NCBI GenBank assembly: GCA_030747595.1
Contig: JASLKK010000006.1
Location: 62,001-126,000 of the forward strand
Reading direction: 5' to 3'
Origin: Acidimicrobiales bacterium
GTDB taxonomy: Bacteria > Actinomycetota > Acidimicrobiia > Acidimicrobiales > MedAcidi-G1
DNA: 64,000 nucleotides
The notes beneath the pieces are model-generated. The model searched no databases. It had not been told where the DNA came from and saw nothing but the letters and a program-made list of their open reading frames with translations. The first letter of the stretch is position 1. Every line of letters begins with the position of its first letter. This document shows, in pieces, positions 5,352-19,563 of this stretch. The position numbers and the translations under genes are program-made.

Positions 5352-6407
5352 ATGGGTGTCGACGGCGACCTTCTCAAGCAGTACACCATGACCACCTGGG
5401 GCTATAAGCAGGGGGAGTCGGTGTCGCTGATGATCCATCTGGGGGTGCGGCTCGGGCTCTACGAGGCGCTTGACGGTGCGGGCCCGGTGACGGCGGGCGA
5501 CCTGGCGGCAGCCACTGGGCTGCACGAACGGTGGCTACGCGAATGGCTTCGTTCGCAGGCGGCGGCCCAGCTGATGGTCAGTGACGAGGGGGAGACGTTC
5601 GAGCTACAGGCTGAAGCCGCCATGGTGCTGGCCCGTAAGGGCACGCCGACCTATGCCGGCGGTGTGTTTAGCCACCTTCGGAACCCGAAGGTCGCGGACG
5701 GGCTGGCCGAGGCATTCCAGACCGGTCTGGGCCTGACGTACGACGGCCAAGGTGAGGGATCCGAGCAGCACGTTGAAGCGATGCTGGCGCCCATGGCCAG
5801 AGCGCTGTTGGTGCCGAAGGTGATTCCGGCTCTGGACGGGGTGGCCGACCGGTTGGCGGCCGGCGCCAAGGTCGTGGACGTGGGCTGTGGCACCGGGCTG
5901 GCCCTCGAGTTGATGGCTGCCGCATGGCCCGACTGCACGTTTGAGGGATACGACGTGTCCGAACGGGCGGTGTCGGTAGCCCGGCACCGATTCGACGACG
6001 TCGACAACGTGACTATCCACCTAGCTGGCGGGGAGGACGTGCCTCCGACCGCCGACGTCGACCTGATGATGACTCTTGACTGCCTGCACGACATGCCGAG
6101 GCCCGACCTGGCAATGGGAGCTATCCGGGCGGCCATTTCCGACGACGGGACATGGCTGGTCAAGGAGATCAAATCGTCGCCCGAGTGGTCCAAGAACCTA
6201 CGCAACCCGATGCTGGCCATGATGTATTCGACGTCGGTGGCGTCGTGTATGTCGTCGGCCATGTCAAGTGAAGATGGCCTAGGCCTTGGGACGCTCGGCA
6301 TGAACCCGGCGGTCCTCGAGTCGATGGTCACCGACGCCGGCTTCACCCGGTTCTCCATGCACGATCTCGATGATCCCACCAACCTCTACTACGAGGTACG
6401 TCCCTAA
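5352..6407 (+). CDS. SAM-dependent methyltransferase with N-terminal winged-helix domain
   Basis: The first ~90 residues resemble a winged-helix dimerisation domain (LYEALDGAGPVTAGDLAAAT), and the C-terminal part is a class I methyltransferase with motif I VVDVGCGTGLALEL near residue 176 and an acidic motif II (GYDVSE). This architecture is shared with small-molecule O-methyltransferases and with the mycobacterial Rv2258c-type proteins. The substrate cannot be told from sequence. The ATG at 5352 is preceded by AGGAG. The gene stands between the ftsX block and a convergent GNAT gene. Confidence 0.8.
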   Translation: MGVDGDLLKQYTMTTWGYKQGESVSLMIHLGVRLGLYEALDGAGPVTAGDLAAATGLHERWLREWLRSQAAAQLMVSDEGETFELQAEAAMVLARKGTPTYAGGVFSHLRNPKVADGLAEAFQTGLGLTYDGQGEGSEQHVEAMLAPMARALLVPKVIPALDGVADRLAAGAKVVDVGCGTGLALELMAAAWPDCTFEGYDVSERAVSVARHRFDDVDNVTIHLAGGEDVPPTADVDLMMTLDCLHDMPRPDLAMGAIRAAISDDGTWLVKEIKSSPEWSKNLRNPMLAMMYSTSVASCMSSAMSSEDGLGLGTLGMNPAVLESMVTDAGFTRFSMHDLDDPTNLYYEVRP

Positions 6408-6495
6408 AGCCAGACAGTGCGCATGCAGTAGCACCCACAGGTTTTCAGCCTGTTTTGAGAGTTTCTGTTCTTTCCAGAACCGGTTCAGACGCTGC

Positions 6496-7041
6496 TCAAC
6501 GGCTGAAGCCGGCGGTATCTCTGTCCAAGGCCCAGATGCCGTGGGGGGCCGACGGAAAGAACGCCATAGTGCGCTCCTCCAGCAACTCCATGCCCAGCCG
6601 TCGGGCTACGGCCTGGGATGGCCCGTTGTCGGGGAGGATGCACGAGAAGATCCGGTCCAAGTCCAGTTCCTCGAATGCGTACCGGATGGCCGCGGCACCG
6701 GCCTCCGTGGCGTAGCCCTTCCCCCAGTGATCGGGGTGGAGCGTCCAGCCGACCTCCACGCCCGGCCAGTCCGGACGCTCGGGACGGTGGAGGCCTGCTC
6801 GGCCCAGAAAGACTCCCGTGAACCGCTCCTCTAGCGCCCACTGTCCGGTTCCCCGGAGCACCCACTGGCCCAGGAACCCAGCGATCTGCTGCCAAGCGTC
6901 GCTCCGGTCCAGGCTCTCCGGGAGGTGCAGGCAGCGTCGCACCTCCGGACTGTCCAGCACGGCGAAGTAGTCGTCCACGTCGTCATCTCTGAACGGGCGC
7001 AGAACAAGCCTTTCGGTCTCAAGCGTCGGGCAGGCCACCAT
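6496..7041 (-). CDS. GNAT family N-acetyltransferase (RimJ/RimL-like)
   Basis: A 181-residue acetyltransferase of the RimJ/RimL type. It begins with the usual LETERLVLRPFRDDD strand-helix and has the acetyl-CoA pyrophosphate loop HPDHWGKGYATEA near residues 102-114, then the C-terminal SQAVARRLGM helix typical of the family. Members acetylate ribosomal protein N-termini or small amines; the substrate here is unknown. It is convergent with the methyltransferase and divergent from the DUF2061 gene, with a structured inverted repeat in the gap. Confidence 0.85.
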   Translation of the reverse strand: MVACPTLETERLVLRPFRDDDVDDYFAVLDSPEVRRCLHLPESLDRSDAWQQIAGFLGQWVLRGTGQWALEERFTGVFLGRAGLHRPERPDWPGVEVGWTLHPDHWGKGYATEAGAAAIRYAFEELDLDRIFSCILPDNGPSQAVARRLGMELLEERTMAFFPSAPHGIWALDRDTAGFSR

Positions 7042-7045
7042 CCGC

Positions 7046-7110
7046 TGAGTTTGTCACCCGACTGGCAGGGCGACCCCCCGCCCCCTCAGGGGAGGGGGGT
7101 GACAGACTCA
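7046..7110. repeat. Nested inverted repeat filling a divergent intergenic gap
   Basis: The outer arms 7046-7059 (TGAGTTTGTCACCC) and 7097-7110 (GGGTGACAGACTCA) match at 13 of 14 positions. Between them lies a second C-run/G-run hairpin (about 7073-7099). The element fills nearly all of the 76-bp gap between the starts of the GNAT and DUF2061 genes. It could be an operator, a structured leader or the edge of an inserted segment. Confidence 0.6.
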
Positions 7111-7117
7111 ACCTACG

Positions 7118-7663
7118 ATGAGAGAACATCCTGAAAGTCCGATCTTTGGTCCTGAGGACCCGCGCTTAGATCCCCCGAACCCTCCGGAAATCCAACCGGT
7201 TCGTTCGATCGCCAAGGCGATCTCTTGGCGGGTGGTGGGAACACTCGACACCCTGATCTTGTCCTTCGTCATCCTGAGTTTTCTGGGCCCTTTCTTGGGC
7301 CTTGAGGAGGCAAGCGGAGTTGACAAGATAAGAACCGCCGCCTTAATTGCTTTGACCGAAGTGGCAACCAAGATGACGCTCTACTACCTGCATGAGCGAC
7401 TCTGGTCGCGGTTGCAATGGGACCGCACCGTGGACGAAGAGGGCCACTACCGGGAGGGGCGACGGCGCTCGGCTACCAAGACGGCGACATGGCGGGTGTT
7501 GGCGAGCGCCGACACGATGGTGCTCGGGTTCGTCTTCACCGGCAATTTGGCGACAGCCATATCGATCGGTGGATTCGAGGTCATTACCAAGTTGGTGCTC
7601 TATTTCTTCCATGAACGCTATTGGGCGCGGATCCGTTGGGGGATCATCGCGGGGAGTGCATGA
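7118..7663 (+). CDS. DUF2061 tandem-domain membrane protein
   Basis: A 181-residue protein with two copies of the DUF2061 hairpin. Each starts with a basic residue-rich KAISWRVVGTLDT or KTATWRVLASADT element, has two hydrophobic segments and ends with a YY(L)HER.W.R.W signature (about residues 28-98 and 110-178). The family is membrane-bound and of unknown function. The start ATG at 7118 overlaps a TACGAT hexamer, so the true 5' end is uncertain. Its codon use looks less GC-rich than the flanking housekeeping genes. Confidence 0.8.
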   Translation: MREHPESPIFGPEDPRLDPPNPPEIQPVRSIAKAISWRVVGTLDTLILSFVILSFLGPFLGLEEASGVDKIRTAALIALTEVATKMTLYYLHERLWSRLQWDRTVDEEGHYREGRRRSATKTATWRVLASADTMVLGFVFTGNLATAISIGGFEVITKLVLYFFHERYWARIRWGIIAGSA

Positions 7664-7765
7664 GGTTCGAACCGGCCTGCTGAACCAGGGCATTGTTTGG
7701 TGTATCTACACCGAGGGCGTCAGAGATACCCACCGCCCCCATAGGAGGGGTGGCAGGCTGAGACC

Positions 7766-9865
7766 GTGAAGAAGTACGCGGTTGCTCTGACGTTTCTGTT
7801 GGTCGTCTCAGGGTGTGGCGGAAGTTCAGACACCGGCACGCCAGCAACGACGGTTGCCCCTTCAGCAACTCAGGCGCCGACCACAACTGCTGTGCCGACA
7901 ACCACTGCGGCACCGACAACAACGACGGGGCCTGCAACGACTACAACTGAGGTAACTGCCAGCATCGTGGCGTCAACGATTTCCCCTGCGGCAACGACGA
8001 CGGCATCACCGCCAACCACCACCACGACGGCACCTCAGGCGGCTACGCCTCCCACCACCACTGGGGGAACCGGTGGCCAAGCCAGCGTAGAAGGCGCCGG
8101 AAAGGGCAGGCCGACAGACAGATACGCCTGCAATATCGATTCCTTGGGTTACTGCATCTTCACAGGGGTTCCGCATCAGACTGGACTTGATCCGGGAACC
8201 GAAGACGTCGTCGATCGTGACGGGAACTTCCTCTTTGCTGTAAACGAAGCAGTGGCGGTGAATGCCCAAGGCGAAGCACTCCAGGCGAGAGGAACGCCCG
8301 CCTTCGACGGAGACGACCTCCAGCGGTCCTCACAGGACGGACTAAGCGAAGACGAGAAAGCCTTCCAGCGCGTCATGGCGATCATGTTCCCAATCCGCAA
8401 TGCCCTCATGTACGACATCGCAGCAGTCACCCAAACCGAATGGGATCTCCTCGTCGGCGAACTCGGACGGAGAGAGATCAAAGAAACAACGTTCACCTCA
8501 GGACTAACTCCCAAAGACAACTACTACGGGCGACAGGGCATCTTTGACCTTGCGAAAAATCCTGAAAGGAAGGACATCCACCATGACGTCATGAAGTTTC
8601 TGGAAGAAGCAGGTCTGTATTTGCTCTGCCATGTGACGACAGATGACTTCGGAGACATGCTGAAGGAAACCCATCCCGAAGGGCACGATCCCTGCGGGGA
8701 TGCGGGGATCTCGACAAAGATTCCGTTCTCCTATCTGGCACCTACGACTGTCGCGCCAACCACCACAGCACCTACCGAGGCTCTTGAGATCTGGGAAGAG
8801 GTATACGTAGAGATTCGTCGCATAGCTGCGGAGAGACCACGCCGCGGTCAAACCATCAACCTCAGGGCCGCTCCAGGATTCTCCGACGAACACCTAGAGG
8901 TCGTCACCGCCGCTTATGCGGAGGCCGCCGACTTCTGGTCAGGCGGATTCGACTTTGCCGAGACAATCCTGCTCGTGATCGTCGATGAAACCGATAGGAC
9001 TTGGTGGGAAACTGAAATGTCACTGCTCGAAGGCGAGCGCTTCAACCCAGGGTGGTTCTCTGAGGTCCATGAATCTGCTGCTCACGGGATGGTCGAGGTC
9101 GATACGAATGGTGTACCCCATATCGTCAGCGCCACGGGAAGCCAGACCGACTTTGGACAGAACGCAGTTGCCGCGCTTGCTCAACTAGTAGCGCATCACG
9201 AGACCACTCACTGGTTCCAGTACCTAGCGACTGGGTCCAAGACTGATCGATGCCTTCTAATGGGAGACCCTTCCTGCCCATGGACATACCTCCCCTGCTG
9301 GCTGACTGAGGGACACGCCGAGCTCTACATGAAGGCGTTCGCTGACGGGCTTGAGGACAACCCTGTGCCATCAAGTGTCTGGCGAGAAGTACGACTGGCA
9401 GGAATTGGGAAGTCCATACCCGATGCGGCCTCGGTGACTGCTCAGGGCTGGCTCGATTATTTGTGGCTACCTCGGACGTCGACTGAACCACGATGCATAG
9501 GCAGCGGTGGACCCCTCGGCTACTCCCTCGGTCTTCCAGTAAACGAGATCCTCTTCTATGACTTCGGTGACGCGAAAATTAATGAGTGGCTTCTCACCAC
9601 TGGGACCTATCCGAGCACTCCGTCATGTCCTAGTTGGTTCAACGCTTTTGAAGACGTGTTCGGTGTTTCTGTTGAGAACTGGTATCGAACGTCGGGAGCT
9701 CCGTATCTGTTGGACACGTTTTCTTCTGACCGCTCAGCTAAAGATGTCCTCACCTTCGACCCAGATGGGTTCTCCCCCTACTGCCAACCAGGTCAAGTTG
9801 GCGCGACAGAAACCGGCTCTGTGGCTGGGGAAACTGGATCAGACACCGTCGACCCTCTCGAATAA
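7766..9865 (+). CDS. Lipoprotein with HExxH zinc-metallopeptidase signature
   Basis: The GTG start gives a signal peptide with lipobox VVSGC (lipid-anchored Cys17), then a Thr/Pro/Ala-rich linker to about residue 115, a first globular region (about 115-320) and a second short TTT-AP linker. The second domain contains H478-E-T-T-H482 and, 32 residues later, WLTEGHAELY with E515, the layout of gluzincin peptidases in which the two His and the later Glu bind zinc and E479 is catalytic. Several Cys pairs suit an exported fold. I cannot assign a peptidase family. The gene is less GC-rich than the genome around it and has no recognised partner. Confidence 0.75.
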   Translation: MKKYAVALTFLLVVSGCGGSSDTGTPATTVAPSATQAPTTTAVPTTTAAPTTTTGPATTTTEVTASIVASTISPAATTTASPPTTTTTAPQAATPPTTTGGTGGQASVEGAGKGRPTDRYACNIDSLGYCIFTGVPHQTGLDPGTEDVVDRDGNFLFAVNEAVAVNAQGEALQARGTPAFDGDDLQRSSQDGLSEDEKAFQRVMAIMFPIRNALMYDIAAVTQTEWDLLVGELGRREIKETTFTSGLTPKDNYYGRQGIFDLAKNPERKDIHHDVMKFLEEAGLYLLCHVTTDDFGDMLKETHPEGHDPCGDAGISTKIPFSYLAPTTVAPTTTAPTEALEIWEEVYVEIRRIAAERPRRGQTINLRAAPGFSDEHLEVVTAAYAEAADFWSGGFDFAETILLVIVDETDRTWWETEMSLLEGERFNPGWFSEVHESAAHGMVEVDTNGVPHIVSATGSQTDFGQNAVAALAQLVAHHETTHWFQYLATGSKTDRCLLMGDPSCPWTYLPCWLTEGHAELYMKAFADGLEDNPVPSSVWREVRLAGIGKSIPDAASVTAQGWLDYLWLPRTSTEPRCIGSGGPLGYSLGLPVNEILFYDFGDAKINEWLLTTGTYPSTPSCPSWFNAFEDVFGVSVENWYRTSGAPYLLDTFSSDRSAKDVLTFDPDGFSPYCQPGQVGATETGSVAGETGSDTVDPLE

Positions 9866-9934
9866 GAGCGTCCCTGGCATGCCCTCAGCACACCTCCAAG
9901 GCCATCGGAGTATCCATCCGAACCCCTTCGTTGC

Positions 9935-9965
9935 GGGGGACGTGGGGCTTTCGCCCCGTTCTCCC
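9935..9965 (+). terminator. Hairpin downstream of the lipoprotein gene
   Basis: GGGGC (9944-9948) pairs with GCCCC (9953-9957) around a TTTC loop, and an outer GGGGG (9935-9939) can pair with CTCCC (9961-9965). It may end the lipoprotein transcript, but no T-run follows, so it could instead be the first helix of a structured RNA. Confidence 0.4.
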
Positions 9966-9993
9966 TAGGGACTCCGAAGTTAACCCACCTCAA

Positions 9994-10067
9994 AACGGTG
10001 GAGAGAGGCGCTCCGCCTACCCCCTGAGCGGTTGGATAACTCCCAAATCGGGGGCTGAAACACCGTT
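9994..10067 (+). ncRNA. Candidate structured RNA with three-way junction
   Basis: AACGGTG (9994-10000) pairs with CACCGTT (10061-10067). Enclosed are hairpin AGGCG/CGCCT (10006-10010 with 10014-10018) and stem CCCCC/GGGGG (10020-10024 with 10050-10054), the latter holding a smaller TTGG/CCAA stem (10032-10035 with 10043-10046). The pairing was found by eye. No known RNA family was recognised and transcription direction is assumed. Confidence 0.25.
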
Positions 10068-10188
10068 CGCTGGGGCGCAGTCACGCCTCTCACCAGGAAC
10101 TCTACCCGCCACGGACGCGAGTCGAGCCAGAGGCTGCGGCCTACCTGCACGTATCTACACCTGGGGGCTCGCTGGTATCGATCTAGAG

Positions 10189-10207
10189 GTTGGCGCTAAT
10201 GGCCAAC
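10189..10207. repeat. Hairpin near the 3' end of a small gene
   Basis: GTTGGC (10189-10194) pairs with GCCAAC (10202-10207). It lies just past the stop of the minus-strand gene ending at 10215 and could act as its terminator, although no T-run follows on the minus strand. Confidence 0.4.
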
Positions 10208-10214
10208 TAGGCGC

Positions 10215-10523
10215 CTACGAAAGCAGGTTGGCACCAGTGTCCTGACTGACGATTCGGGCGGGCGGGTCGGCAACGAACTCTTGTCCCAGGGTGAGCCACT
10301 CCGAGTCGGCAGACAATGCATCCACGAATGCGCCGTATCCAACACCGTTCTCGAACTGGAGCACGTAGGTCATTAGGTGTCCAGGTCCTGTGTTGTGGGC
10401 GATAAGTGCGACATTGGTCGCACCGAGGCGTCGGTGGATTTCAGACCCCCGCCTACAGAAGCCGATGAAATCGCCCTCACGGCCTTGATGGACTTCCCAG
10501 ACGGTCCTTCCTACAAACATCAT
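10215..10523 (-). CDS. Small protein, probably of dimeric alpha/beta-barrel (NIPSNAP/Dabb-like) type
   Basis: A 102-residue protein whose pattern of strand, helix, strand and helix (GRTVWEVHQGREGDFIGFC, then THLMTYVLQFEN-like strand) resembles ferredoxin-like small enzymes or binding proteins. Family assignment is tentative. The start ATGATG at 10518-10523 has AAAGGAAA upstream on the minus strand. It lies in the less GC-rich accessory segment, alone on its strand. Confidence 0.55.
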   Translation of the reverse strand: MMFVGRTVWEVHQGREGDFIGFCRRGSEIHRRLGATNVALIAHNTGPGHLMTYVLQFENGVGYGAFVDALSADSEWLTLGQEFVADPPARIVSQDTGANLLS

Positions 10524-10836
10524 CTTTCATTTCCTTTCTGTTGGGCGGAAAGCCCCGTTACTCGGAGCCATCTGGATGGTGCCTTCGAGTACGCCCGATT
10601 GCAAACACATGCATGTGGCAATTGTTGACGCCACCCCGCCCCGTACGGCGTGGGGCTGAAGAGGACTGGTTGATGTCCTGCCAGAACAACTGACCAAACC
10701 CATCGGCAAAATCGGCGACGAACAAGAAAACGACCTGCTCTTCGGTGACCTCAGCCACCAGAAAATCGCGGCAGACTTTCGCCATGTCGCCTGGCTCGGT
10801 TGCCGTAATCGCCTATTTGCACTTGCGAGGAAGGCG
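10524..10836. other. 313-nt stretch without a confident gene
   Basis: It contains a GC hairpin near 10634-10655 and a short minus-strand frame (10558-10785, 75 codons) without a good ribosome binding site. The plus-strand frame of the next gene is open back to 10660 but has no ATG, GTG or TTG before 10837. I see no promoter that I can defend. Confidence 0.4.
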
Positions 10837-11106
10837 GTGAGTCAGAGTCGCGACTTCAAGATCCTTGGCTACACGGTCGGCCAGGCACCAAATCTTCCTC
10901 TGATCGTCGTGGTCCTTTCTGCACTAGTGGTTCGGGTAGCTGAAAAAGGATCAGGGGTCGATCGGATTGCTACCTCTGTGTTCGTCGTGAGCCTCAGCAT
11001 CTGGAGTTATCTGGAAGCGGTCGATGGCGTCAATGCTTTTCGAAGACTTCTGGGAATAGTGGGCTTTGCCGTCGTGTTGACCCGTCTCGTAGGACAACTT
11101 CACTAA
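10837..11106 (+). CDS. Small membrane protein, function unknown
   Basis: An 89-residue protein with about three hydrophobic segments (near residues 18-36, 42-60 and 68-84) and a soluble first 15 residues. The GTG at 10837 has GAGGAAGG about 4 nt upstream. No family was recognised. It lies in the accessory segment between two other small genes. Confidence 0.6.
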   Translation: MSQSRDFKILGYTVGQAPNLPLIVVVLSALVVRVAEKGSGVDRIATSVFVVSLSIWSYLEAVDGVNAFRRLLGIVGFAVVLTRLVGQLH

Positions 11107-11250
11107 GCCACTGGCAGGACGCCAGCGAACTGGGGTTGGTCGATGGATCCCCGGGGAACCACCAAGACCGGGAGTGCGCGTCGGGCTTCAGAGCGGAGTT
11201 GCAGCTTCCATGGAAGGATCGCCCTTCACAACAAATGGAGGAAAGAAAGC

Positions 11251-11550
11251 ATGTCCTATACCTACCTGAACGTCAGCGACATCGGTCAAAGGTTCAGAGA
11301 CGCACCAGTCGGCACCGATGAGGGCAACGCTGCTATGGCCGAGCTGTTCGCGATCTACGAGGATTGCGGAGTAGAGGCCGTCTCGACGGGTTGGTCGGGG
11401 GCTCTAGGAAAGATCATCAGCATCCAGACTGCGCCGGACGCTGAAAGTGCGACAAGGTGTCAGGTGGCTCTGACCAATGCTGGTCTCGTGGAGGGCCTGC
11501 TCACAGGCCCCTACACGTCGTTGGAAGACTTGATCGCAATGCAAATGTAG
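11251..11550 (+). CDS. Small soluble protein, function unknown (possibly GYD/ferredoxin-like fold)
   Basis: The 99-residue frame starts at ATG 11251 with GGAGGAAAG 7 nt upstream, a strong ribosome binding site that overrules the longer frame from 11143. The sequence has an alternating helix and strand pattern (AMAELFAIYEDCGVEAVST, KIISIQTAPDAES) that looks like a small ferredoxin-like fold such as GYD-domain proteins, but the match is weak. It ends 15 nt before a hairpin terminator shared with the convergent lipoprotein gene. Confidence 0.6.
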   Translation: MSYTYLNVSDIGQRFRDAPVGTDEGNAAMAELFAIYEDCGVEAVSTGWSGALGKIISIQTAPDAESATRCQVALTNAGLVEGLLTGPYTSLEDLIAMQM

Positions 11551-11565
11551 AACGCGGGCGGGCTG

Positions 11566-11590
11566 GGGGGCGGCCCGAGCGGCCGTCCCC
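11566..11590. terminator. Bidirectional hairpin terminator between convergent genes
   Basis: GGGGGCGGCC (11566-11575) pairs with GGCCGTCCCC (11581-11590), nine Watson-Crick pairs plus one G-T. It sits between the stops of the small gene ending at 11550 and the lipoprotein gene ending at 11591. No clear T-run is present. Confidence 0.55.
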
Positions 11591-13705
11591 TCAGTCGGCT
11601 TTCTCCAGGCGGCGGGCGTCGGTGGAACCGATGACCACCACGATGTCGGCGGCTAGCACCCGGTCGACGGTCGACGGCGCTACGAAGTCGATCAGCTCGG
11701 GCATCGGGACCTCATCGGCGGGTAGGGACAGTGTCGTGCCGACCGCCCTAGCGTCGCCAAGGAATCCTTCCCGGTAGTAGATCGTCGACAACGAGGCCCG
11801 GTAGGCGTTGCCGGGTGCGGTCGTCTGGTAACTGTCCAGCCCAAGGAGTCGGGTAACCTTGCCTGCCAACCCGCCCACACTGGAGCCGTTGGCTACGAAT
11901 ACGACCACTTGATCGGGGGGCCTGCTGAATGGCCCATCCGGCGGCACCGGCACGCCGGCTCGATCCAGTACCACCGGTGGACCGTCGGGCACCAAGCAGC
12001 CCGCCGACGCCCCGAAGCCGACGCCGTGAGCGCACGGGTACTCGTATCGACGGACCTGTACGGTCCGCCAACGTCGACCGTCGACCGTGGTGGGACGCAT
12101 ATCAGGCACGTCGATCGGTCCCACGCCGGCCAGCGCGACCTGCAGAGCTAGCCGGGACGGATCGGGCCCGGCTGCTTCGACAGCCCGAGCCACCCAACGC
12201 ACGAGGCTGCACGCCTCCACCACCGTCCGGTGGACGTCATCCGCGGCGCTTTCGACGGTGGGCACCGCTACGCCCTCGACCTCTGCCCAAGCCTCGACGC
12301 AGAGACGATCGAACGGTCGCCGTTCAGCATCATCAAGTCGCTGTGCACCGGTCGCCGACCCGTCGACCACCAGGGCGCCGTCGTAGTAGGCGCCAGCGGT
12401 CGGTCCGCCGAACTCGGCGATCCGTGATGCCACCGCATCCAGGCCCTGTCCGTCCAGACCCGACAGGACAAACTGTGGGCGGGGCATTTGCTGTTCCAGC
12501 ATCTCCAGGATCAGCCACGGCAGTGACGTCATGTCGACTAGCGGGATGACCACGTCCACGCCGTCAGCAATCATGGCGGCGACTGCAGTGTCTAGGCCCA
12601 CCTGGCATGTGGTGGCCCCTTCGCATCCGATCTGATACCGGTTGGAAGTCATGTCGACCTCGGCCAGTGCATGATCGACCGCGGCCATGAGGTCGTCAGA
12701 CCGTTGAGGTGAATCTGGTACGACCACCCCAATGGTCGCACCAACTAGGAGTCCGCGGTCTATGGCAGCCCCCAGGGCGAGGCTCAGACCAGTTCGGTCA
12801 CCGACCTCGATGGAGTGGAGCAGACCCTGCCCTTGGAGCAAGTCCAGGTCGGAGATGCCGCGTACGGCGAGATGGGAGACCCGGTGGCGGCGAGTGAGAC
12901 AGCTTGCGGCGGTTCCAGGTATGGGGGTGGCGGCCAGGACCACGACTGCTTCGTGAATCTCGACAGCTTCCAGACAGGCAGCCTCACGCAGGGTGTCGAT
13001 GTCGAGATCGCCACCCCCCAGCGCCGACACGCCAATGGTTCGAAGCTCGAGTGATCGACCGTGGATTCCGCCGCATGCCTCGTTCACGACATCCAGGAAC
13101 GCAGCCACCATGGCGCCGGGATCGCCCACCGGCACGCCGAAGCCCACCTTGACTAACTCGTTGAGGCGGGTGTCGATCTGGGCGATGACGATCGATTCGG
13201 CAGTGATTCCCGCCTCCACAGCAGTAGGAGCGTCTATCGGATCAGCGGAGCCCATCCGACAGAAGGAGTCCAGTCCGGAGAACCGACTGGTCCGGTCGAG
13301 AGACTCCTGAAAGGCGAGAAAGATCGGTCCGCGGGGGTCGACGTATTCGCCATCGGTAACCACCCCGTCGGGTAGGAGATCTGGCGAGAGTGTCTCTGGA
13401 GACAACTCATTGTCGCCGCTCTCGGGATCCCTGTCTTCAACCCGCTCCGTAACGGTCGGGGACATGGCTACCGAAGTCGTCGACTCGACGGGTGCAATCA
13501 ATGTCGTGCTGGTGGGCGGGGCGGTCTCGGACCCTGGAGCGCTCGTCGTCGAGGCGGAAGCGGACGTGGTTGATGGAGTGACCGTGATGACAGCAGTCGG
13601 CGAGGTCGTCGCCGGCTCGGTCGTGGGGTCATTGGTCGTGCAGGCGGGGAGGGTCGCCACGAGGGCGGCGGCGAGCGCGAGGGTGGTGGGGAGACGGTGG
13701 CGCAT
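11591..13705 (-). CDS. Substrate-binding lipoprotein fused to a C-terminal LytR_C domain
   Basis: Starting at ATG 13705 the 704-residue product has a signal peptide with lipobox LPAC (Cys22), a Thr/Ser-rich linker, and a long domain like type I periplasmic binding proteins of branched-chain amino-acid ABC systems (GITAESIVIAQIDTRL near residue 145, later FVLSGLDGQGLDAVA). From about residue 600 comes a LytR_C domain (VVVFVANGSSVGGLAGKV), normally the tail of LytR-CpsA-Psr cell-wall ligases. The longer frame upstream to 14050 overlaps the divergent gene and is rejected. No ABC permease lies nearby, so a sensing or wall-binding role is possible. Confidence 0.75.
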   Translation of the reverse strand: MRHRLPTTLALAAALVATLPACTTNDPTTEPATTSPTAVITVTPSTTSASASTTSAPGSETAPPTSTTLIAPVESTTSVAMSPTVTERVEDRDPESGDNELSPETLSPDLLPDGVVTDGEYVDPRGPIFLAFQESLDRTSRFSGLDSFCRMGSADPIDAPTAVEAGITAESIVIAQIDTRLNELVKVGFGVPVGDPGAMVAAFLDVVNEACGGIHGRSLELRTIGVSALGGGDLDIDTLREAACLEAVEIHEAVVVLAATPIPGTAASCLTRRHRVSHLAVRGISDLDLLQGQGLLHSIEVGDRTGLSLALGAAIDRGLLVGATIGVVVPDSPQRSDDLMAAVDHALAEVDMTSNRYQIGCEGATTCQVGLDTAVAAMIADGVDVVIPLVDMTSLPWLILEMLEQQMPRPQFVLSGLDGQGLDAVASRIAEFGGPTAGAYYDGALVVDGSATGAQRLDDAERRPFDRLCVEAWAEVEGVAVPTVESAADDVHRTVVEACSLVRWVARAVEAAGPDPSRLALQVALAGVGPIDVPDMRPTTVDGRRWRTVQVRRYEYPCAHGVGFGASAGCLVPDGPPVVLDRAGVPVPPDGPFSRPPDQVVVFVANGSSVGGLAGKVTRLLGLDSYQTTAPGNAYRASLSTIYYREGFLGDARAVGTTLSLPADEVPMPELIDFVAPSTVDRVLAADIVVVIGSTDARRLEKAD

Positions 13706-13737
13706 AGGCAGGGTGGGTGCCCGGAGGGCACCGCTGG

Positions 13738-13743
13738 ACAGTA
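13738..13743 (-). promoter_or_regulatory. Possible -10 element for the LytR_C fusion gene
   Basis: TACTGT on the minus strand, about 32 nt before the ATG at 13705. No convincing -35 or ribosome binding site was found. Confidence 0.3.
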
Positions 13744-13856
13744 TTCGGGTGAAACCCAACACCGTCGGACCTTTGCATGGCCATCGCTGGGGGTATTGCC
13801 GGGGTGTCCACCCAGGATGCCTTGATCGGTGCCCGGGGGGCGGGCTGTTGGTCGCG

Positions 13857-13862
13857 TAGCGT
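13857..13862 (+). promoter_or_regulatory. Leaderless -10 element (TAGCGT)
   Basis: TAGCGT lies 7 nt before the GTG at 13870, which supports that start over the longer frame from 13777. Confidence 0.5.
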
Positions 13863-13869
13863 CGACGCC

Positions 13870-15159
13870 GTGCCGGACATCGAGGACCCGATCGAGCTAC
13901 CGGATCCTGCCACCGAGGCCGAATCCGCTTCCACCGCTGAAGAGGGCTCCATGCCTGAACGGACCGAAGCAGAGGCCCGGACGGATCCTTCCGGTGAACA
14001 CCGCGGACGCCGGTCCGCCTTTTTCCGGGAACGTTCGGATTCGGTATCACCGACAGCCGGCATGCCTTCTCCTTCGGGCGGTCGGTGGACCGATGCCGAG
14101 GCCGACGAGCAGATCCGAGCCTTTCTCGTCCGACTGGCCGGCGACCGCCAGTTGGTCCACTGTGATGACCCGGTCGAGTTCCTGCAGGAGAACGACCTTC
14201 TACTGCTTTTCGGACCGGAGGAGGAGACTGCCTTCGCCGACCTGGCCTTGCGGTTTCCCGACGAGGCGGTCACTCGGTGGGCCACGCTGCTCAGCGGAGG
14301 TGACCGCACTGAGGCTTTCGGGCCCCGGTCGCGTGCCGAGCGGCGTGACGAGGCCAGCCTCGTTCGTGAGTTTCAGATCGGCATGCGGAAGCGGGCCATG
14401 GGTGGCATCCTCCTCCTGGGCGTGCTGGCCCTGGTCGGATTCGGGGCACGATCCCTGTTGGAAAATGAGCCTGAGGATCGCTCGGACCGGTCGCTGCGCT
14501 TCTCTGGATCCACGATCACCGACATAGATGGAGAGCCGGTGCTGCGCCTCGAGGGAGGCCCCCCGGTGGCCGAACCGACACTGATCGCGTCGGCCGACCG
14601 GGTGGTGGCCGTCCTTCGAGGCGACGGACCTCCGGAGAACCGGATCCGGCTCGACGTCCCGGACGTCGACCTTCCGGTCCGCCCCGGATTGCTGATGGCT
14701 ACTGTTTTTGAACACCGGGGAGGTCAGGTCGCCCTCGTGGGCCCTGAGGACTGGTGGATCGGTGCCTGTGTTCGGGTGACTGTGGCGACCGATTCCCTGC
14801 GACCGCTTGATGTCGTGGTATACGAGTCCGAGGAGGGAGCGTGTCCGGATGGGCTCGGAGGACGGGCGGCCCGGGTGACGTGCGTCGGGCGGGCCGCACT
14901 GATGTTGGGTGTCGATATCCCCCAGGGAGGCGTGGAACTCGACGAGGGCGGGCTGGGTTGGGCCGAGACCATCCGGTTCGGGGTCGAGGCCGCTCCGGGC
15001 ATCTCCTCGAAGTGGGAGGTCCTGTCCGTCCGGGGAGCGATCACCGTTGCGGACGCTTCGGGGACGGGAGAAATCTCCGTACCGGCCTTTGGTGGAGCAC
15101 CCGGCGACGTGGTGCCCGTTGAGATTGGTGGGGCCAGCGGTGATTGCACCCTCACCTGA
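13870..15159 (+). CDS. Bitopic membrane protein of unknown function
   Basis: The 429-residue product has an acidic, helix-forming N-terminal part (about 1-165, including DEQIRAFLVRLAGDRQLVHC), a single membrane segment near residues 176-194 (GGILLLGVLALVGFGA) and a 230-residue C-terminal part rich in predicted beta strands, likely outside the cell. The layout is like an anti-sigma factor or receptor, but no such motif was recognised. It diverges from the LytR_C fusion gene across 164 bp, so the two may share control. Confidence 0.65.
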   Translation: MPDIEDPIELPDPATEAESASTAEEGSMPERTEAEARTDPSGEHRGRRSAFFRERSDSVSPTAGMPSPSGGRWTDAEADEQIRAFLVRLAGDRQLVHCDDPVEFLQENDLLLLFGPEEETAFADLALRFPDEAVTRWATLLSGGDRTEAFGPRSRAERRDEASLVREFQIGMRKRAMGGILLLGVLALVGFGARSLLENEPEDRSDRSLRFSGSTITDIDGEPVLRLEGGPPVAEPTLIASADRVVAVLRGDGPPENRIRLDVPDVDLPVRPGLLMATVFEHRGGQVALVGPEDWWIGACVRVTVATDSLRPLDVVVYESEEGACPDGLGGRAARVTCVGRAALMLGVDIPQGGVELDEGGLGWAETIRFGVEAAPGISSKWEVLSVRGAITVADASGTGEISVPAFGGAPGDVVPVEIGGASGDCTLT

Positions 15160-19164: not shown

Positions 19165-19563
19165 ATGGTTGGGTATCCCGAGGGCACGAATGACGAACCG
19201 ACAGACGCCTTCGATCCGGTCGCTGATGTTCCGCACCGGTCCGACCGGGATCAGTTCCCCTCTGAGTGCGGGCTATTCGTCGTCGAGTCAGGCCCCAAGG
19301 CCGGTTCGCGCTACGGCCTAGAAGCTCCACTGACCTCTGTGGGTCGCCACGGCCAAGCCGACATCCTGCTCGACGACGTCACGGTGTCACGCCGTCACGT
19401 CGAGGTGGAACGGATTGCCGACCGCTATCTGGTCCGGGATGTCGGCTCCCTGAACGGCACCTGGTTGAACGGCGGACGGATCGACACGGCGGAGTTGAGC
19501 GACGGCGACGAACTCCAGATCGGCCGATTCAAGTTGGTCTTCTTCCACGGAACAGCGGATTGA
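19165..19563 (+). CDS. garA: FHA domain protein, GarA/OdhI-like
   Basis: A 132-residue protein with an acidic, disordered N-terminus (about 1-35) and one FHA domain with all core elements: SVGRHGQADILLDD, SRRHVEVE and SLNGTWLNG. By position between gcvH and a MerR gene it is the counterpart of mycobacterial GarA, which switches 2-oxoglutarate metabolism when phosphorylated. The ETTS phosphorylation motif of GarA and OdhI is not present in the N-terminus, so the control mechanism may differ. Confidence 0.85.
   Translation: MVGYPEGTNDEPTDAFDPVADVPHRSDRDQFPSECGLFVVESGPKAGSRYGLEAPLTSVGRHGQADILLDDVTVSRRHVEVERIADRYLVRDVGSLNGTWLNGGRIDTAELSDGDELQIGRFKLVFFHGTAD

Follow-up and report, generated by a model that had tools for sequence, protein, structure and literature searches.

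The window, a stretch of 64,000 nucleotides, lies on contig C6 of an Acidimicrobiales genome and contains a gene in which a solute-binding lipoprotein is joined, within one open reading frame, to a C-terminal LytR_C domain. This architecture is supported, as are a single gain of the tail, its closer likeness to stand-alone LytR_C domains and purifying selection acting on it in close pairs. Docking of the lipoprotein at wall-assembly proteins would be the most likely role of the tail. We tentatively favour, at a little short of even confidence, a reading in which the fusion is a binding lipoprotein docked at such proteins that captures a solute for an unlinked permease or, less likely, for a signalling partner. 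The features referred to below are as follows.

11591 to 13705, minus strand: fusion gene for a solute-binding lipoprotein with a C-terminal LytR_C domain, 704 aa (open frame, Pfam, homologues).
13640 to 13705, minus strand: predicted signal peptide with the lipobox Cys at residue 22 (sequence; Cys conservation).
13385 to 13639, minus strand: T/S/P-rich linker, residues 23-107, of low confidence in the model (pLDDT; dN/dS).
11966 to 13384, minus strand: predicted type I solute-binding domain, residues 108-580, with ten conserved Cys (model, Foldseek, VIA, Pfam of homologues, Cys counts).
11624 to 11911, minus strand: LytR_C domain, residues 599-694 (Pfam PF13399; purifying selection in close pairs).
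13706 to 13869, no strand assigned: shared upstream region of the divergent pair (alignment of eight genomes).
13870 to 15159, plus strand: divergent single-span membrane protein, 429 aa if the start is the GTG at 13870 (neighbour conservation, upstream alignment, model).
5352 to 6407, plus strand: methyltransferase-like gene, the 3' neighbour of the binding-protein gene in relatives (synteny; named by reading).

The frame on the minus strand translates as 704 codons with zero internal stops. Residues 1-22 have the sequence of a signal peptide with Cys22 at the lipobox position; of the 14 aligned rows with a residue at that site, 11 have Cys. LytR_C (PF13399) was the one Pfam match, at residues 599-694 with 34.5 bits, above the gathering score of 22.2, and with 36.9 bits in a genome-wide profile search. 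An earlier note, made from the sequence of this DNA, had proposed a LytR_C domain fused to a branched-chain-amino-acid-type binding lipoprotein; the profile match, the leucine-type fold match given below and the lipobox Cys together bear this out. The same Pfam search gave no match to an LCP domain in the fusion protein at E <= 1, and an NCBIfam search and phmmer against the PDB returned zero matches for it. In the AlphaFold2 model (mean pLDDT 79, pTM 0.72) residues 108-580 are confident and are followed, after a less confident hinge, by a second fairly confident domain at about 597-704, while pLDDT is below 50 over residues 1-107. Joining of two genes by an assembly or frame error, a vanishingly improbable explanation, is ruled out: nine genomes share this uninterrupted frame, and the eight besides the window's encode proteins 56-90% identical to its own. 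Five of the fusion contigs recur as MAG records under five different accessions.

The solute-binding domain was recognised by structure and through its relatives. The fusion protein has no Peripla_BP match in Pfam at E <= 1, and its binding domain is too divergent for the Pfam models; Peripla_BP_6, for which the earlier note had advised a domain search, was matched by six of the 30 aligned homologues at E <= 0.1 (best 6.6e-14). A Foldseek search of the PDB with the AlphaFold2 model found the leucine-type binding protein 4n0q (E 1.6e-11), and VIA gave structural matches to 3lop (Z 28.1 over 340 residues), LivK 3td9 (Z 28.0, over a similar length of 339-340 residues) and LivJ 4gnr (Z 27.6). The predicted structure is thus that of the two-lobed type I periplasmic-binding fold. 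AmiC, a sensor with the same fold, is also among the VIA matches (Z 25.5), which lends something to the possibility, taken up below, that the fusion is itself part of a sensor. With the fusion model as query VIA returned no row confined to the LytR_C region. Ten Cys of the binding domain are Cys in every aligned row with a residue at those positions (eight positions in 30/30, Cys149 in 24/24 and Cys570 in 26/26) and we infer that disulfides form among them.

The distribution of the tail was determined by searching 61 genomes, 37 of the family and 24 of other families, with the window's protein as query. Binding-domain matches were found in 30 of the former and two of the latter, and 30 of these 32 binding proteins were aligned and placed in a tree, the diverged proteins of G016 and G021 being left out. 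Nine of the 30 carry the LytR_C tail, all of them in the window's genus, so the fusion recurs in related genomes as the earlier note had suggested should be looked for. The remaining 21 frames stop no more than 26 residues past the aligned binding domain, which leaves no room for a LytR_C tail. Within the genus, the 17 genomes searched comprise nine with the fusion, four with a tail-less protein and four with no detected binding domain (G003, G009, G013 and G061); G061 is only 66% complete and in G009 the binding-protein gene is cut by the contig end. In the binding-domain tree the nine fusions form one clade (support 100/99) with no tail-less member inside it, and one change explains the label. 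Since the tail-less rows fall outside the fused clade, one gain, probably within the genus, is the natural reading, change counts by themselves not distinguishing gain from loss.

A scan of a contig collection gave 27 loci, in five of which (L062, L063, L064, L065 and L068) the match extends into the tail. These five are contigs of G015, G014, G005, G004 and G010 and are annotated as Acidimicrobiales MAGs or 'Candidatus Microthrix'. The restriction of the fusion to one genus is therefore a statement about the 61 genomes and this one pattern-limited scan. LytR_C itself was found in 144 of 148 genomes of the order. Among the matches listed, the ten LytR_C loci with the longest frames were judged by eye from their translations to be eight LCP-LytR_C-like proteins, one degenerate LCP domain with LytR_C and one stand-alone protein, with no fusion of a binding protein to LytR_C among these ten.

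As to the source of the tail, the window's genome has three LytR_C matches. Besides the fusion there is a stand-alone protein on contig C11, read by eye as having a single membrane span, and on C6 a 408-aa frame that ends in LytR_C and whose N-terminal portion looks by eye like a degenerate LCP domain. The sole PF03816 match of this genome is a separate protein on contig C1, in which LytR_C was not matched at E <= 0.001. A tree was made of 29 LytR_C domains (nine fused tails, 19 stand-alone and one LCP-like, the duplicate locus L103 being left out). All nine fused tails group together in it as a single clade (100/99), whose placement among the stand-alone rows has weak support. The fused tails are 31-44% identical (mean 37%) to the 19 stand-alone domains and 17-27% identical to that of the single LCP-like protein. 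The tail thus most likely came, to judge from these comparisons, from copying of the lineage's stand-alone single-span LytR_C protein of the VirR/Cei kind. Origin from the LCP-attached LytR_C of the same genome is disfavoured by the 17-27% identity, such proteins being represented in the tree by a single row on a very long branch (7.1). A degenerate-LCP-like domain followed by LytR_C was seen by eye at L001 (G000:C6:32563-35820) and L141 (G054:C182), and these proteins possibly represent a separate non-catalytic branch.

Selection on the tail was estimated by a plain Nei-Gojobori count of dN/dS, and the conclusions leave out any pair whose dS was nan or clearly saturated. In the three closest pairs dN/dS was 0.11, 0.15 and 0.15 for the tail, 0.18, 0.11 and 0.22 for the binding domain, and 0.65, 0.83 and 1.03 for the linker, which over nine pairs, some with saturated dS, ranged from 0.33 to 1.03. 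The tail is under purifying selection in close pairs. In distant pairs it can diverge faster than the binding domain, though not always: identity of tail against binding domain was 45% against 80% for P0001-L008 (dN/dS 0.47 against 0.14) and 51% against 66% for P0001-L010 (0.56 against 0.19), while for P0001-L006 it was 88% against 81%, with a tail dN/dS of 0.11. A decaying tail was accordingly rejected for the three closest pairs on dN/dS, the distant pairs showing faster change of the tail. The tail of L008 (G014), at only 45% identity beside a binding domain at 80%, groups weakly with another sub-clade (83/72), and replacement or fast change of this tail is possible.

These results bear on a rather unlikely alternative, that the protein is an ordinary binding protein acting in trans for an ABC permease, with a tail that is neutral or merely stabilising and without a role at the wall. 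The lack of a tail in 21 of the 30 aligned relatives and its faster evolution in distant pairs are what such a protein would lead one to expect, but it sits less well with a fused clade that contains no tail-less member and with a tail whose dN/dS is low in close pairs. That most relatives lack the tail, and that it outpaces the binding domain in some of the wider pairs, also count against the docking reading that we prefer.

In that preferred reading the protein is a HAAT-type extracytoplasmic solute-binding lipoprotein, encoded away from permease genes, that acquired its LytR_C domain in a single sub-clade of a marine Acidimicrobiales genus. The tail would be a docking module acting by LytR_C-LytR_C contacts and would place the lipoprotein beside wall-assembly proteins, namely the stand-alone LytR_C protein and LCP-type proteins. 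The binding domain would capture a small solute, most likely amino-acid-like, and would hand it to a permease encoded elsewhere, for which the best candidate may be an MFS-LivF/LivHMG cluster on contig C8; a signalling partner as recipient of a solute signal is less likely than a permease. Docking is proposed for the tail from published LytR_C-LytR_C contacts and from the role of the domain in CglA. In PMC11832169, VirR is described as binding itself and truncated LCP proteins holding LytR_C in split-GFP tests and is proposed to act as a scaffold. The same paper reports a signal with truncated LCP proteins only and none between VirR and full-length ones, which counts against the docking reading. 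For Streptomyces CglA, PMC11481543 reports a contribution of the LytR_C domain to function or stability. The 'wall-facing' placement given to the protein in the earlier note would likewise follow from the roles of LytR_C in VirR and LCP proteins, as set out in PMC11832169.

It has been considered whether the tail might itself bind a wall glycopolymer or peptidoglycan, making the protein a wall-anchored capture protein. The occurrence of LytR_C on wall-ligase proteins, as described in PMC7831098 and PMC11481543, is in keeping with this, but the contacts described in the available part of PMC11832169 are protein-protein contacts, and we regard direct glycan binding as improbable. A further, doubtful extension of the docking reading is that occupancy by solute tunes the attachment of wall glycopolymers, or that uptake sits at zones of wall growth, in which case LytR_C might be a transferable docking module able to recruit a lipoprotein into a wall-ligation complex.

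A permease for such a binding protein would lie elsewhere in the genome. The window's genome has 12 permease (PF02653) matches, and the remark of the earlier note that no permease was nearby can be extended to the whole 164-kb contig C6, which holds 0/12 of them. Homologues of the binding protein in G041 and G048, genomes of two other families, adjoin MFS-LivF and LivHMG fusion genes (names by reading), and related MFS-LivF and LivHMG genes are present in the window's genome on contig C8, a different contig from that of the fusion gene. The 17-kb region that holds the C8 cluster contains no binding protein of this profile, and C8 carries none of the genome's Peripla_BP_6 matches. Two more clusters of the window's family agree: an 18-kb region with the cluster of G018 is likewise free of such a binding protein, as is the 7.4-kb contig of G036, which extends only some 2 and 0.3 kb beyond its cluster. 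Six examined clusters of other families, among 21 listed, each have a binding protein of this profile nearby (E 4.9e-9 to 5.5e-158). A permease cluster with no adjacent binding protein of this family in the same genome makes plain uptake at least as likely as sensing, and it is also what an ordinary binding protein acting in trans would be expected to serve. On C8 (G000:C8:49000-66000, L150) the MFS-LivF and LivHMG fusion genes stand beside genes that read as proline-racemase-like and acyl-CoA-metabolism-like. At another locus, L078 (OY282367.1), three tail-less members of the binding-protein family lie in tandem, and the frames listed over 11.4 kb include no permease by eye.

A survey for LivHMG at E <= 1e-120, in which 14 first-look candidates were scored per genome, found it in 26 of the 37 family genomes: 14/16 in genus g1, 0/5 in g2, 5/5 in g3, 5/5 in g4, 1/1 in g5 and 1/5 in g6. 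No LivHMG was matched at this threshold in four of the five g6 genomes and in the two g2 genomes whose binding protein is diverged. Since the binding protein is present in these six genomes, that permease is not obligatory and an exclusive link is disfavoured. In the three genomes where the neighbouring genes could be seen and no binding protein was found, LivHMG likewise gave no match, and this suits a link to transport. The pairing is not one-to-one: among the three permease copies of G041, the one beside the homologue resembles that of the window's genome least (46%, against 60% and 55% for the other two).

The divergently transcribed membrane-protein gene is part of a block conserved across the family, with the order methyltransferase, binding protein (minus) / membrane protein (plus), SRAP, DUF2079, HIT, pgsA, gcvH, FHA and MerR, in which SRAP and DUF2079 were named from Pfam and the others by sequence reading. 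SRAP was not found in the g3 region (L052) or in the five g2 regions, nor gcvH in three of the latter. The methyltransferase-like gene is part of the syntenic block only. In the window, about 4.4 kb (6408-10836) lies between this gene and the next gene in common with the 90%-identical relative G002, and by reading it contains a GNAT-like, a DUF2061-like and a 699-aa lipoprotein-like gene, among others. Only about 90 bp separates the same two frames in G002 (L034). Positions 8001-12000 have a GC content of 58.6%, while the remaining 4-kb steps of the window lie at 63-66%, and 6408-10836 looks like a recent insertion.

The divergent pair itself occurs in 17 of 20 regions from whole genomes; it is not seen in L039, where the contig stops, or in L051 and L053, which come from genomes of other families. 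It also occurs in 25 of 27 loci of the contig scan, which come largely from the same assemblies (missing in L074, on a 4-kb contig, and in L078). The divergent bitopic membrane protein noticed earlier is thus a conserved neighbour with a single span, and it adjoins tailed as well as tail-less binding proteins. Alignment and model give it one hydrophobic span, preceded by a strongly conserved stretch and followed by one rich in beta structure; the N-terminal half is the best conserved part, around LLFGPEEE and AFGPRSR. The protein has no Pfam or NCBIfam match at E <= 1, and its model, of modest quality (pLDDT 69, pTM 0.49), has no Foldseek match in the PDB at E <= 0.001. In the upstream region shared by the pair, two conserved blocks of the eight-genome alignment fit TANNNT -10 elements by eye (13738-13743 on the minus strand and 13857-13862 on the plus strand); a sigma-70 scan of 13600-14050 gave no promoter site and one terminator-like site. 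The conserved blocks, as read by eye, agree with a probable leaderless start of the membrane-protein gene at GTG 13870.

The conservation of this pair invites an explanation that is rather unlikely, in which the protein is a wall-facing sensor: a solute would be sensed by the binding domain, the signal would pass through the conserved and presumably cytoplasmic N-terminal half of the membrane protein, and LytR_C would position the complex at the wall. Such an arrangement would resemble GlnH-GlnX-PknG of mycobacteria, for which GlnH provides a precedent (PMC6069109). It gains from the frequency of the pair, from the conserved blocks upstream and from the strong conservation of just that half of the membrane protein, and the pair also persists in the four g6 and two g2 genomes in which LivHMG was not found. 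However, the membrane protein is retained where the binding protein is not. Two of the five g2 genomes still have a diverged tail-less binding protein between the methyltransferase and membrane-protein genes, and in the other three (G025, G029 and G033, of this sister genus) these two genes adjoin directly; no binding domain was found there in the region or genome-wide with the window's protein as query, a search that a strongly diverged moved copy could escape. At these loci (L192, L193 and L194) the two genes are adjacent on one strand, with the appearance of a clean loss of the binding-protein gene. In G048, which belongs to another family, the membrane-protein gene stands with SRAP, HIT, pgsA, gcvH, FHA and MerR on an 8.2-kb contig that carries no binding protein; the binding protein of this genome is encoded beside a permease on another contig. 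Because it is kept without the binding protein, the membrane protein seems to have a role independent of the lipoprotein. The proposal of a sensor coupled to the divergent membrane protein therefore holds as regards a conserved neighbour and is weakened as regards the coupling; contact between the two proteins is possible, and obligate co-occurrence does not indicate it. The lack of PDB matches for the modest model of the membrane protein likewise gives the sensor little help.

An FHA gene that is GarA-like by reading lies at 19165-19563, near gcvH and a MerR gene. PF16918 (the PknG TPR domain) had no match in the window's genome, which is 95.87% complete, and matched the control, C. glutamicum; a search with PF16919 was uninformative since its controls were silent. 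A GarA/PknG link was for this reason dropped as a mechanism, and the result also speaks against the sensor.

In a 2024 paper LytR_C is called a domain 'of yet unknown function' (PMC11481543). The present case is a natural transplant of LytR_C onto an unrelated protein, and the tail-less sisters in the same genus offer a built-in comparison that isolates the contribution of the domain. If LytR_C docks proteins at LCP complexes, the same would be expected here without any LCP domain. It also provides an example of a binding protein, with its gene apart from transporter genes, that acquired a wall-linked domain.

Several known systems share parts of this arrangement. Type I HAAT proteins (Peripla_BP_6; LivJ/LivK, AmiC) have the fold and length of fusion residues 160-587 or so in common with it; the fusion differs in missing the Pfam model, in its ten conserved Cys, long linker and LytR_C tail, and in lying on a contig without a permease. 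In the GlnH-GlnX-PknG-GarA system of amino-acid sensing in Actinobacteria (PMC6069109), the gene of a binding lipoprotein stands beside a membrane-protein gene, as it does here, and the FHA gene of the window, GarA-like by reading, is only a few kb from the pair. The neighbour here, by contrast, is single-span and is retained without the binding protein, and no PknG TPR domain was found. GlnH belongs to another class of binding-protein fold than that of the fusion. The LCP-LytR_C wall ligases (Lcp1, LcpA, CglA) likewise end in LytR_C, whereas the fusion lacks an LCP domain at the threshold given above. VirR (Rv0431) and Cei (Rv2700) of mycobacteria and the stand-alone protein on C11 have, like the fusion, LytR_C without an LCP domain. 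VirR and Cei consist of one membrane span and LytR_C alone (PMC7831098), whereas LytR_C in the fusion follows a solute-binding domain of some 470 residues on a lipid anchor, behind a signal peptide with its Cys; the fusion is thus not a protein with one TM span and LytR_C as sole domain. In the open-licence PMC literature, judged by title or the start of the abstract, no LytR_C-solute-binding-protein fusion was found, and searches there for LytR_C with Acidimicrobiia and for LytR C-terminal with Peripla_BP_6 found nothing. The parts of the fusion are thus known, and their combination is new within the literature searched and is seen in one genus only within the genomes searched.
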